DNA from: Christensenellaceae bacterium
Lineage (GTDB): Bacteria > Bacillota > Clostridia > Christensenellales > UBA1750
Length of the DNA stretch: 38,986 nt
NCBI GenBank assembly: GCA_031280685.1
Contig: JAITGM010000014.1
Span: 1-38,986 of the forward strand
Direction: 5' to 3'
In this document: in pieces, positions 7,712-12,007 of the stretch
How positions within the stretch are numbered: position 1 is the stretch's first letter
Layout: each line of letters opens with the position of its first letter
Notes under the pieces: generated by a model
What the model was told of the DNA's origin: nothing
Database searches by the model: none
What the model saw: only the letters and a program-made list of their open reading frames with translations
Position numbers and translations under genes: made by a program

Positions 7712-9349
7712 GTGCCCAACATGAACGATAACAGCCCGGTCAACCCGCGGCCTCTCAGGCGGCGGCAAAGGCAGCAGCAGCCCAAAGGTCTTCGCCAAAA
7801 GCTCCTGGCGCGCTTCCCCGCTTACGAAAAATGGCTGCAGCCCAAGGCGTTGATCGCCCTTGGGCTAGGGTTTTTTTTGCTGATCACGGTGCCCATTACG
7901 GTCTTGGCCGTAAACGGCAGCCGAAACCGCGCGGCCGACGCCCAGACGCAGGGCTATTCGAACCTCTCGGGCGAAGGCGCACTGCCCTCGTTCACCCCCG
8001 TCCCCCCCCCGGAGCCCAGTCCCACGCCATCGCCTTCGCCTTCGCCCACCCCGGAACCCCACCCCTCCAACATGGTGCTGCAAAAGGGCATCGACGCCCC
8101 GGTGATCATTGAGATTCAGGCCAGGCTCATGGAGCTTGGCTATATGGAGGCAGACGAGCCTATCTCCAGCTTCGGGCCGATGACGGAAGAGGCCATCCGG
8201 CACTTCCAGCGCCAGCATTCCCTTGCGGAAGACGGCAAAATCGGCATGGAAACCTATACCCTGCTGATGAGCGACCAGGCCACGAAGTACACGGTCTTCC
8301 TAGGCGCAGATGGCACCGACGTGAGCGAGCTGCAAAGCCGCCTGCGCGAGCTGGGCTTCATGGACGACGTGACCGGCCACTTCGGCGAAGCGACCGAAAG
8401 CGCCGTGAAGCGCTTCCAGCAGCTCAATGGCCTGACCGACGACGGCAAGGTCGGCGCGAGGACCCGCGAAGCCCTGTATGCCGACAACGCGAAGGCCAAC
8501 TACCACAAATTCGGCGAAAAGAGCGAGGAAGTCAAGAGCTACCAGAGCCTGCTCAACAAGCTCGGTTACCTGACCACCACGCCGGACGGTAATTATGGCG
8601 CGGACACTACGGCCGCTGTCAAGCGCTTTCAGGAGCTCAACGGCCTGATCCCAGACGGCTTCCTTGGCTACACCACGATTAAGACGCTCAAATCCTCGGG
8701 CGCGGCGCCCAACGCGCTGCAGCTAGGCATGAAGGGCAGCGACGTGGAGCGCGTGCAAAAGCGCCTGAAGGAACTTGGTTACACCAAGAACGTAACCGGC
8801 TACTTTGGCGAAATCACGCAAGAGGCCGTAAAGGCCTTCCAGAAGCGCAATTCCCTGGGGACCGATGGCGTGGTCGGGCGTGTAACCATGGCCAAGCTCA
8901 TCTCCTCCTCCGCCAAAAAGCCGGCCAGCAGCTCTTCTGGCAGTTCCGGCACGCCCAGCGTTCCTTCGGAAGGCTCCGGCTCCGGCGTCGATAAGCTGAT
9001 CTCGGTCGCGGAATCCAAGATCGGAAGCAAATACGTCTTCGCTTCGAAAGGCCCCAATACCTTCGACTGCTCGGGCTTCGTCTATTACTGCCTAAATCAG
9101 GCCGGCGTGAGGATCGGCTACATGACCAGCGCATCCTGGCAGCACACGGATCGTTTCCAGCGCATCTCTTCGATGAGCGATTTAAAGCGGGGAGACATCC
9201 TCTCGTTCGAGGGGCATGTGGGCATCTACATAGGCGGCGGCAAGATGATCGACGCCTCTTCCAGCCAGGGCAAGGTGCGCACGACCAGCGGTATCACCTC
9301 CTCGTCGTACTGGACCTCGCACTTCGTCTGCGGATACCGCGTCTTCTAG
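7712..9349 (+). CDS. Membrane-anchored peptidoglycan hydrolase: four PG-binding domains and NlpC/P60
   Basis: 545 residues. A basic cytoplasmic N-terminus (residues 1-45, rich in Arg/Gln) precedes one membrane segment (46-67, ALIALGLGFFLLITVPITVL). A Pro/Ser spacer follows (about 93-119), then four PG_binding_1 repeats (about 121-187, 193-256, 265-328, 336-398), each with an LGY/F turn and an AVKRFQ-type helix. A Ser-rich linker leads to the NlpC/P60 domain (425-545). Cys453 in FDCSGFVYYC and His502 in GHVGIYIGG are the catalytic pair; the usual third polar position is Asp514 in MIDASS rather than His. NlpC/P60 enzymes cut the D-Glu to diamino-acid peptide bond of cell-wall peptides. The start is GTG 7712, with TAAGGAG nine bases before it; the later ATG 7721 is too far away. 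It is monocistronic, acting outside the membrane in wall remodelling. Confidence 0.93.
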   Translation: MPNMNDNSPVNPRPLRRRQRQQQPKGLRQKLLARFPAYEKWLQPKALIALGLGFFLLITVPITVLAVNGSRNRAADAQTQGYSNLSGEGALPSFTPVPPPEPSPTPSPSPSPTPEPHPSNMVLQKGIDAPVIIEIQARLMELGYMEADEPISSFGPMTEEAIRHFQRQHSLAEDGKIGMETYTLLMSDQATKYTVFLGADGTDVSELQSRLRELGFMDDVTGHFGEATESAVKRFQQLNGLTDDGKVGARTREALYADNAKANYHKFGEKSEEVKSYQSLLNKLGYLTTTPDGNYGADTTAAVKRFQELNGLIPDGFLGYTTIKTLKSSGAAPNALQLGMKGSDVERVQKRLKELGYTKNVTGYFGEITQEAVKAFQKRNSLGTDGVVGRVTMAKLISSSAKKPASSSSGSSGTPSVPSEGSGSGVDKLISVAESKIGSKYVFASKGPNTFDCSGFVYYCLNQAGVRIGYMTSASWQHTDRFQRISSMSDLKRGDILSFEGHVGIYIGGGKMIDASSSQGKVRTTSGITSSSYWTSHFVCGYRVF

Positions 9350-9446: not shown

Positions 9447-9563
9447 ACGGTGGGCGCCAACTGCCCGCTTCGCGGGCTAACCCCGAAAGGCCTTCCGGCG
9501 CAATAAGCGCCGGAAGGCCTTTCGGGGTTCCGGCGGCTTCGCCGCCGAGTTGGCGCCCACCGT
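9447..9563. repeat. Three-armed inverted-repeat element (cruciform / four-way junction)
   Basis: A 16-bp outer stem is formed by ACGGTGGGCGCCAACT (9447-9462) and its exact complement at 9548-9563. Inside are three consecutive perfect hairpins: GCCCGC-TTC-GCGGGC (9463-9477), a 21-bp stem starting CCCCGAAAGG with a 5-base AATAA loop (9481-9527), and CGGCGGC-TTC-GCCGCCG (9531-9547). All but about 17 of 117 bases are paired. It lies between two convergent genes in the gap 9350-9719, which otherwise holds no gene. No known family could be assigned. Confidence 0.75.
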
Positions 9564-9574
9564 TTCCCGGCCCT

Positions 9575-9605
9575 AGTCCAGCCGCGCAAAGCGCGGCCGC
9601 GGACT
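9575..9605 (+). terminator. Hairpin with T-rich tail after the cruciform element
   Basis: AGTCC-A-GCCGCGC-AAA-GCGCGGC-CGC-GGACT is followed by TTCTTTCTTTT. It may be the actual terminator for the NlpC/P60 gene, about 230 bases after its stop. Confidence 0.4.
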
Positions 9606-9654: not shown

Positions 9655-9697
9655 AGAAAAAAAGGGCTTTGCGGCGGATTCCCGCCGCAAAGCCCTT
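9655..9697 (-). terminator. Terminator of the DUF1538-PII genes
   Basis: On the minus strand AAGGGCTTTGCGGCGG pairs with CCGCCGCAAAGCCCTT around a 4-base loop and then runs into about nine T. It begins 23 bases beyond the stop of the PII gene. Confidence 0.85.
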
Positions 9698-9719
9698 CGC
9701 TAATCAGCCTTTATCTTTT

Positions 9720-10424
9720 TTATTCCTCCCCTTCTTCATCGGGGAAGTGCAGCCCGATGGCCTCGCTGACCGGCAGCGAGAACAGCACGGCATGGGCCGG
9801 CGTCTGCGGGCCCGCCTTGGCCAAGATGGCGCGCATCAGCGCCGCCTTGTCGGCCTTGCGAGTGATGATAAAAACCATTTCCTTCTCGCTGACGAGCGAG
9901 AGATTAAAGAATTTCTCGGCATGATCCTGCCCGGTGCCCTTCGCGTGCACAACCGTACCCCCGCGTGCGCCTGCGGCGCGCGCCGCCTCCATTACCAGCT
10001 CAGTATGGCCGTTATTGGCCACGGTCACGATCAGTTCGAAGGGGGTTTCCTGCGCCTCAGCACTCATTTTGCATCCCTCGCTTGGTTTTAATGTCTGCAT
10101 TCCCGCAATTTCAAGGAGCTTTAGCAGATGGCCGCTCAGGCTGCGCATGGGTAGCAACGTCGCCACACCGTTGCCCGGCCGGTCGATTTGAATGTGGCTC
10201 TCCAGCCCGTGAAGCAGGCGGCGAGTCAGCTCCGGCGGAATGATCGAAAAGCTCATTTGCTTTTCGACGCGCTCAAGCCCTAGCATATCCAACACCGCGC
10301 GCTGCGCGGTTCCCCTGCAGGGCAGAGCCAGCACCACGGGGATGGAAAGTTCTTGGCAAAGCTCACTGACCCGGTCGCTCAGGGTCTTTGGGGTGATCGC
10401 AATCAGCACCTGCGGCTGGTTCAT
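9720..10424 (-). CDS. Double PII-like signalling protein partnered with DUF1538
   Basis: 234 residues built of two PII-like domains. The N-terminal one (about 5-95, starting VLIAITPKTLSDRVSELCQ) is diverged. The C-terminal one (about 128-225) keeps PII-like features: FELIVTVANNGHTELVMEAA, then GARGGTVVHAKGTG (the G-G-T-V-x-H/R-x-K-G-T-G pattern, the region of the PII T-loop/B-loop), and EMVFIITRKADKAALMRAI. PII proteins sense nucleotides and metabolites and gate partner proteins by trimer docking. The gene starts 42 bases after the DUF1538 stop on the same strand, and DUF1538 genes are often next to PII genes, so it probably gates that membrane protein. ATG 10424 follows AAAGGAG; an in-frame GTG at 10463 is less likely. 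Confidence 0.85.
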   Translation of the reverse strand: MNQPQVLIAITPKTLSDRVSELCQELSIPVVLALPCRGTAQRAVLDMLGLERVEKQMSFSIIPPELTRRLLHGLESHIQIDRPGNGVATLLPMRSLSGHLLKLLEIAGMQTLKPSEGCKMSAEAQETPFELIVTVANNGHTELVMEAARAAGARGGTVVHAKGTGQDHAEKFFNLSLVSEKEMVFIITRKADKAALMRAILAKAGPQTPAHAVLFSLPVSEAIGLHFPDEEGEE

Positions 10425-10465
10425 GCGCGCTCTAGCTCCTTTGCTGGTGTGCGGCGTCCTCACCG

Positions 10466-12007
10466 CTATAGCTCTATAATATCCTCATCGGCTTGCGAAA
10501 TTTCGCCCGCCTCGGCAATTTCATCTATGGGCTCCGGCAGCTCTTTTGGCTGCTTGCGGGTGTAAATCAGGCCCATGATCTGAATCGTAATCAGCGGCAT
10601 CAGCGCCACCATCGCCACGACGCCGAAGGCGTCTGAAACCACGTTCCCGCCGACCGCCTCGCAAACCCCGATTGAAAGCGGCAGGAGGAAGGTCGCGGTC
10701 ATCGGGCCGGAGGCCACGCCGCCCGAGTCAAAGGCGATGGAAACGAAAATTCCCGGCACGAAGAATGCCAGCGCAAGGGCTATTGTATACCCAGGGATCA
10801 AAAACCACAAGATCGAAATACCCAAAAGGACGCGGATCATGGCCAGGCCGACCGAAAGTGCGATGGCGACGGAAAGGCTCTGCCCCAAGGCCCTGCGCGA
10901 GATCGCGCCCGAGGTGATCTCCTCCACCTGCTTGTTGAGCACGTGCACGGCGGGCTCCGCCTGCACGATGAAATAGCCCATGATCACGCCGATCGGCACG
11001 ATGATCCACTTATAGGGCAGGGCACCGAGCAGCTGGCCGACCAGGTTGCCCACGGGCATGAAGCCAACATTCACGCCGGTCAGGAAGAGCACCAGCCCCA
11101 GATAGGTATATAGAACGCCCACAAAAAGCCGAACCAGCCTGCGAAGCGAGAGACGGCCCGTAAAGGCCTGATAAAGATAGAAAAACGCCACGATCGGAAG
11201 GAGGGCCATCGCCATTTCGCCAAAATAATGGGGGAATTCCGCGAGGAAACTCCAGGCCATCTCGGTAGACTGCGCGGTTTGCGGGAGGGAAATGGGAACG
11301 ATGCTGGCCTCTTCCGCCCGGAAAACCATGCCCAGGATCAAAACCGCCAAAATCGGCCCTATGGAGCCCAGGGCCACGAGGCCAAAGCTGTCGTTTTCCG
11401 CCTGCCCGTCGGCGCGAATGGCCGCGACGCCGATGCCAAGCGCAATGATGAAGGGCACCGTCATAGGGCCGGTCGTCACGCCGCCTGAGTCAAAGGCCAC
11501 GGCCAAAAAGTTGGCGGGCACGAAGGGCACCAATAAAAAGACCAAGAGATAAAAGCCGACGAGGAGCTTCGAGAGCGGGATGCCAAATAGGATGCGAAGA
11601 AGCGCCACCACCAGGAAGAACCCCACGCCGATGCCGACCGAGCCGATCAGGATGAGATTGGGAATCATGGGCACCTGGTTGGCCAAAACCTGCAGGTCAG
11701 GCTCCGAAATCGTAATCGTAAGCCCCATGAAGAAGCTGACCAGCACCACGACCAGGATGCTGCGGGATTTGGTCATCTGCGCGCCCACGCTTTCCCCCAT
11801 CGGGGTCATGGCCGTTTCCGTGCCCAGGGTAAAGAGGGCGGCACCTACCACGAGCAACGCGGCGCCAAACAAAAAGGCAAGGAGGGCACCGCTTTCGATG
11901 GGCGTGACGGTGAAACAAAGAAGCAAAACGATCACCGTAATCGGCAAGACCGAGCGTAGCGCTTCGATGAATTTGTCTTTCAACACCGTGCTGCCCAATG
12001 AGCGCAT
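10466..12007 (-). CDS. DUF1538 multi-pass membrane protein, probable PII-controlled transporter
   Basis: 513 residues with ten or more hydrophobic segments. The protein is internally duplicated. The first half has SEPDLQVLANQV (101-112) and AFDSGGVTTGPMT (171-183); the second has AEPAVHVLNKQV (350-361) and AFDSGGVASGPMT (425-437). Paired acidic and Gly-rich motifs in the membrane, repeated in both halves, are typical of secondary transporters with inverted-repeat architecture (inference). The family is named DUF1538 and its substrate is not established. The C-terminal 30 residues are acidic and cytoplasmic (PEPIDEIAEAGEISQADEDI), a plausible docking tail for PII. ATG 12007 follows GAGGAGG. 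Upstream, 74 bases away, is a small conserved gene on the same strand. Confidence 0.88.
   Translation of the reverse strand: MRSLGSTVLKDKFIEALRSVLPITVIVLLLCFTVTPIESGALLAFLFGAALLVVGAALFTLGTETAMTPMGESVGAQMTKSRSILVVVLVSFFMGLTITISEPDLQVLANQVPMIPNLILIGSVGIGVGFFLVVALLRILFGIPLSKLLVGFYLLVFLLVPFVPANFLAVAFDSGGVTTGPMTVPFIIALGIGVAAIRADGQAENDSFGLVALGSIGPILAVLILGMVFRAEEASIVPISLPQTAQSTEMAWSFLAEFPHYFGEMAMALLPIVAFFYLYQAFTGRLSLRRLVRLFVGVLYTYLGLVLFLTGVNVGFMPVGNLVGQLLGALPYKWIIVPIGVIMGYFIVQAEPAVHVLNKQVEEITSGAISRRALGQSLSVAIALSVGLAMIRVLLGISILWFLIPGYTIALALAFFVPGIFVSIAFDSGGVASGPMTATFLLPLSIGVCEAVGGNVVSDAFGVVAMVALMPLITIQIMGLIYTRKQPKELPEPIDEIAEAGEISQADEDIIEL

Follow-up and report, generated by a model that had tools for sequence, protein, structure and literature searches.

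Positions 9447-9563 of the window (the whole 38,986-nt stretch of a Christensenellaceae contig that was analysed) comprise 117 bp that, on inspection of the sequence, fold near-completely into an outer stem and three hairpins. The question raised by this locus is what kind of element has such a shape and what maintains it. The element lies between two converging genes, in the following arrangement.

7712..9349, plus strand: upstream gene for a peptidoglycan-binding protein with an NlpC/P60 hydrolase domain (gene call, domains); its stop is 97 bp before the element
9447..9563, minus strand (canonical family orientation): whole three-armed cruciform, type III, with a long central arm (fold and model match)
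9447..9462, no strand: outer stem, left strand ACGGTGGGCGCCAACT, 16 bp, perfect (sequence and fold)
9463..9477, no strand: 6-bp arm GCCCGC-TTC-GCGGGC, canonical arm 3, conserved in the subtype (sequence, fold, comparison)
9479..9529, no strand: central arm of 23 bp with loop AATAA; this part varies within the subtype, and its sequence here occurs in no other copy (sequence, fold, comparison)
9531..9547, no strand: 7-bp arm CGGCGGC-TTC-GCCGCCG, canonical arm 1, conserved in the subtype (sequence, fold, comparison)
9548..9563, no strand: outer stem, right strand AGTTGGCGCCCACCGT (sequence and fold)
9576..9604, no strand: separate neighbouring hairpin GTCC-A-GCCGCGC-AAA-GCGCGGC-CGC-GGAC (read from the sequence)
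9661..9698, minus strand: ordinary intrinsic terminator belonging to the convergent gene (terminator scan)
9720..10463, minus strand: convergent gene with a P-II-like domain, 156 bp to the right of the element (gene call, domains)
10466-12007, minus strand: DUF1538 gene, following the P-II-like gene (gene call, domains)

The architecture is that given by the initial annotation, with a 16-bp outer stem, arms of 6 and 7 bp with TTC loops and a closed four-way junction in which only T at 9478 and C at 9530 are unpaired, except that the central arm has 23 bp and not 21. Folding, which had been advised as a check, yields -76.4 kcal/mol for DNA versus a shuffled mean of -35.8 (z -13.0) and -118 versus -66 for RNA (z -12.1), with 0 of 200 shuffles reaching the fold energy of the element. 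An ordinary terminator is rejected because no T run follows the stem (TTCCCGG on the plus strand, CGCGCTCC on the minus strand) and the terminator scan lists none there, the true terminator being that at 9661-9698; the scan also finds no intrinsic terminator between the NlpC/P60 gene and the element. A tRNA or another known RNA is likewise rejected, given that no tRNA is called in the window and no Rfam family matches at the gathering threshold, the sub-threshold Rfam matches falling mostly on long hairpins, with scores well below gathering. Of the two genes at 9720-12007, the P-II-like one has homologues in relatives that are merely ~28-42% identical to it. A PolC-type polymerase points to a lineage within Bacillota.

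A DNA search detects no near-identical second copy of the element in the genome, and several of its weak matches are three-armed junctions with other stem sequences. A structural scan that looked for k hairpins within an outer stem and covered 834 kb of the 2.24 Mb genome yields 19 three-armed junctions at scores of at least 20, compared with 0.0 per dinucleotide shuffle, whereas two-armed (2 versus 0.4) and four-armed (0 versus 0.4) junctions are not clearly enriched, so that the three-armed topology is non-random in this genome. The short and commonest form, type I, consists of 67 nt, with an 8-bp outer stem and three 7-bp hairpins with triloops, and its junction (8+7+7+7 bp) leaves no base unpaired. 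Covariance-model and pattern searches cover the whole 2.24 Mb: the type I model has 45 matches at E<=1 and 37 at E<=0.001 (best 2e-12), a few palindromic copies being counted on both strands, and this model (R1) matches the window copy at 9454-9556 on the minus strand (45.3 bits, E 8.4e-5). The window element is one of ~40 or more related, sequence-diverged copies in the genus, some of which are identical across at least 100 bases.

The types differ in arm length. Type II and type III, to which the window element belongs, both have a longer central arm, and arm 1 of type II is built on CGGAGGC; units range from 67 to 126 bp across the family, and the outer stems of types I and III from 8 to 16 bp, with at most 1-2 mismatches. 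C(GNA)G caps 72 of ~130 hairpin loops, the element list having been selected partly by fold; these caps are of the d(GCGNAGC) type, which forms very stable DNA mini-hairpins. A fourth subtype (L050:8590-8705, L057:8140-8245, L062:2590-2706 and L073:11820-11929) carries in its central arm a hairpin that is bulged and conserved (GGCCGAACCC..GGGTTCGAAGCC) and resembles the T-arm of tRNA (GGTTCGAA). On contig C36, two cruciforms (L099:1501-1567 and 1697-1763) form a tandem pair 196 bp apart, with flanks in common.

Conservation is stronger for the shape of the element than for its letters. Of the pairs in 24 type I copies, 93% are standard, and two-sided changes occur at 8 pairs (0/500 shuffles; 0-3 in slid structures), so that the advised search for covariation, like that for further copies, gives a positive result. 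The initial annotation had left a chance local inverted duplication for the case that neither copies nor covariation were found; both are present, and the existence of a dispersed family excludes that origin. G-T and A-C mismatches in the copies (2 versus 4) are few and do not separate RNA from DNA. A test independent of the fold used as anchors 25 copies of an outside hairpin, GGCGCGCGAGCGNAGCGAGCGCGCC: directly upstream of it, a three-armed junction is found in 14 of the 25 cases strictly and in ~20 of the 25 when sequences and imperfect folds are inspected, compared with 1 of 125 shuffles. An anchor hairpin match in a viral contig (L161) has no cruciform.

Type III combines a fixed frame with a variable centre. 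Five sites in the genome match a pattern in which arms 1 and 3 alone are fixed (GGCGGCNNNGCCGCC-N40-70-GCCCGCN3-4GCGGGC), namely, the window copy, C9:56670, C19:19389, C19:41418 and C25:9225; the reversed control matches nowhere in the genome, and the pattern itself has no match in 12 related genomes. In all five, the centre is a perfect or almost perfect palindrome of at least 20 bp and a stem encloses the unit, neither of which the pattern demands, and even a 12-bp central stem is found in only 20 of 20000 random segments. In a sixth type III copy (L069, contig C35), one pair in arm 3 is off the pattern. The window copy and C19:19389 agree pair for pair in arms 1 and 3, differ by two-sided changes in the outer stem and have unrelated central arms, from which it follows that the frame was inherited and the central arm replaced; among the type III paralogues generally, the central arms are unrelated in sequence and near-perfectly paired.

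The phyletic distribution of the family is narrow. Out of 248 genomes from the order, model matches occur in only 2, both of the genus, and the single other genome of the genus examined has three; the named genome collection yields no match to the type I pattern, although records very near the genome of the window may be left out there. Relatives with a similar density of long hairpins do not display the three-armed topology in the stretches scanned. In a relative from the same family that lacks the cruciforms (G007), consecutive perfect hairpins of 21, 26 and 11 bp, with triloops of the GNA/TNC type and no real outer stem, occur at L032:1430-1570.

Two orthologous sites retain the element in a second species. 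At one (L079/L168), a short type I copy corresponds to a long-armed type II copy in the sister species, next to the same downstream hairpin, and at the other (L094/L142), both species have type I. At a third site (L100), the cruciform is missing from the sister species, which has a hairpin of terminator form instead. Taken together, these comparisons indicate that the elements persist, switch type, or come and go depending on the site. The sister-species contig L170 stops 27 bp past the predicted NlpC gene, short of the site orthologous to that in the window. The earlier proposition that recent origin or selection must lie behind such perfection is only half right, in that the family persists in two species with its sequence turning over. 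The perfect pairing could stem in part from template-switch correction of quasi-palindromes, and not from selection.

The copies are non-randomly placed with respect to genes, as called by a purpose-built hexamer gene finder. All 39 copies examined are intergenic in a genome in which 85% of the bases are coding; 15 of 38 lie in convergent regions, compared with 20% expected from intergenic length (p 0.004), and 4 of 39, including L079, for which an orthologous counterpart is known, lie in divergent regions, compared with 25% expected (p 0.018). Tandem contexts are overall as frequent as convergent ones, and the orientation bias within them is weak (13 versus 7, p 0.26). Four of the six type III copies, including that in the window, are located between convergent genes and the other two downstream of a gene; accordingly, the barrier between convergent genes that had been suggested fits the window copy and most of its subtype but not all copies. 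In most cases, no terminator intervenes between the gene and the copy. Terminators show no association with the copies (4 of 27 hairpin-side 3' ends versus a 21% baseline), and the orientation of the hairpin caps relative to genes shows no clear bias.

Palindromes are plentiful in the intergenic DNA of this genome, which is a mosaic, given that the neighbours of the cruciforms are other dispersed palindromic modules. Beside some of the other type III copies lie GC-rich hairpins that resemble the one at 9576..9604. A second module, likewise dispersed and palindromic (gggggtaccgcagtacccgcccgcgaaggcccggagggcc), is found in the left flank of L085, at L063:1907, L052:5666, L073:18914 and elsewhere, at the 3' sides of genes, with or without an adjoining cruciform. 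The left flanks of L089, L093 and L104 contain a module like ggattgcttcgtcgcttcgctcctcgcaatgacgg, which is reminiscent of a palindromic repeat found in many unrelated bacteria. Several loci (L086, L087, L088, L090, L092, L093 and L103, on contigs C7, C12, C28, C11, C42 and C25) are contig ends within or next to cruciforms, some of them identical. Because many contigs begin or end at cruciform copies, these repeats probably break the assembly, and the family may help explain where assemblies of the genus break.

In our reading, the window element is a copy with a long central arm from a family of palindromic repeats that are dispersed through intergenic DNA and specific to the genus. What defines these repeats, and is conserved among them, is the shape: an outer stem, exactly three hairpins and almost no unpaired junction bases. 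The copies would have multiplied as non-autonomous, palindrome-based elements of the REP/BOX/MITE-like kind, and the survivors would mostly sit downstream of genes, tolerated or used at gene 3' ends. When transcribed, a copy might fold into a clover-leaf that caps the 3' end of the mRNA, hindering 3'-to-5' exonuclease decay and dampening read-through between converging genes; the window copy would serve the NlpC/P60 gene, itself devoid of a T-tract terminator, whereas the opposing P-II-like gene has one. A role at RNA 3' ends is plausible because the shape is conserved, the copies are located on the 3' side and, mostly, no terminator intervenes; the compensatory changes and this location bear out, in part, the structured RNA that the initial annotation had considered.

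Nevertheless, a dispersed mobile-type repeat with an effect at RNA 3' ends, taken as a whole, seems to us about evenly balanced between right and wrong, because parasites that insert where they do the least harm would be expected at the same places. The four copies between divergent genes, L079 among them, are not explained by a 3'-end role, and the lack of a T-tract after the stem and the weak orientation bias in tandem contexts also count against it. Convergent enrichment is expected of pure parasites as well, as argued for the pneumococcal repeats BOX, RUP and SPRITE (PMC3049150), and REPs show the same location pattern (PMC3733652).

A purely parasitic non-autonomous repeat, with the single-stranded cruciform as the substrate of an enzyme acting in trans, no benefit to the host, and a location that reflects only where insertions are tolerated, is rather doubtful as the full account. 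The dozens of copies, identical ones with their flanks at several contig ends, the L100 site that is element-free and has another hairpin in the sister species, the confinement to one genus across the 248 genomes from the order and the predominance of C(GNA)G caps all agree with it, and the dispersal agrees equally with the non-autonomous mobile element proposed from the outset. However, neither a mobilizing partner from the four enzyme classes searched nor defined ends came to light. The Y1/RAYT transposase (PF01797), a link to which had been suggested, is absent from the 97% complete assembly, with positive controls, and so are TnpB, IS110 and group II maturase; no shared short target duplication is seen by eye at the flanks, which are themselves repeats and, therefore, leave the ends of the element undefined. 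Retention at two orthologous sites, along with turnover of the central arm and outer stem under preserved pairing, also speaks against pure parasitism.

A DNA landmark appears improbable. Under this model, the four-way junction would be extruded under supercoiling and bound by a junction- or palindrome-binding protein, serving as a chromosome-organizing or topology-relief site between convergent genes. The fully paired type I junction would suit such a site, as would the convergent setting, where positive supercoils meet, of four of the six type III copies, and GNA-capped hairpins are especially stable as DNA; conversely, arms so rich in GC should be slow to extrude, and tandem copies are overall as common as convergent ones. 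Neutral self-perfecting palindromes, in which template switching during replication would perfect quasi-palindromes and swap arm sequences, with the shape as a by-product, could account for the abundance of intergenic palindromes and for unrelated yet almost perfectly paired central arms in paralogues, but not for an arm number fixed at three, with two- and four-armed forms not clearly enriched, type III arm lengths of 7 and 6 with mostly GNA caps, or scanned relatives with similar hairpin density that lack the topology, and are very improbable.

It is unlikely that these repeats represent a new class of elements in which the four-way-junction shape, and not the sequence, is inherited and recognized. 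In such a class, a fixed three-armed frame would carry a freely replaceable central arm, and at one orthologous site the whole junction has changed type beside an unchanged anchor hairpin; together, these features would imply an enzyme, of the host or of a mobile element, that recognizes the geometry of the junction in either DNA or RNA.

With its dozens of natural variants, the family lends itself to the question of whether selection acts on shape alone and where it does so: at the 3' ends of RNA, on the single-stranded DNA of transposition or on DNA junctions. Dispersed bacterial palindromes are known mostly as units of one or two hairpins, from which a constant, near-gap-free three-armed junction differs; no dispersed three-armed family was found in the literature searched, which was limited in extent, so that the novelty is provisional.

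Among known systems, tRNA and other clover-leaf RNAs share the outer stem with three arms, and type I, with its 67 nt, is of this form, but unlike in tRNA-like RNAs, the loops have three bases, and there is neither a tRNA call in the window nor an Rfam match at the gathering threshold. MITEs, including ERIC, similarly are small, dispersed and non-coding, with terminal inverted repeats that correspond to the outer stem; here, in contrast, no target duplication was seen by eye and no mobilizing transposase was found among the four enzyme classes searched, and ERIC folds as a single long hairpin (PMC2267715) as opposed to three arms. REP and BIME are extragenic GC-rich palindromes that form mosaics, occupy convergent and tandem locations and keep their pairing through complementary changes (PMC2817692, PMC3733652), and in all these respects the cruciforms, of which there are dozens, are alike. 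REPs, however, are palindromes of 20-40 bp headed by GTAG or CGTC and in many cases accompanied by a RAYT, whereas the cruciform, at 67-126 bp, is a closed three-armed junction; the aligned flanks of 30 copies contain no such head, the left flank ending in ...gcctgcagcctcgg and the right beginning with cc-GGCGCGCG, and with neither RAYT nor head motif, a REP proper is rejected. BOX, RUP and SPRITE are short repeats dispersed between genes, for which strong RNA structure is predicted and which show a convergent bias, and BOX has a variable middle module that folds separately from its frame (PMC3049150). The cruciforms resemble these pneumococcal repeats in being dispersed, intergenic, structured and convergent-biased, with no sequence relation apparent, but the middle module of BOX is one repeated sequence whereas the middle arm of type III is a unique palindrome in each copy. 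We read the family as REP/BOX/MITE-like in kind, with an unusual four-way-junction shape.
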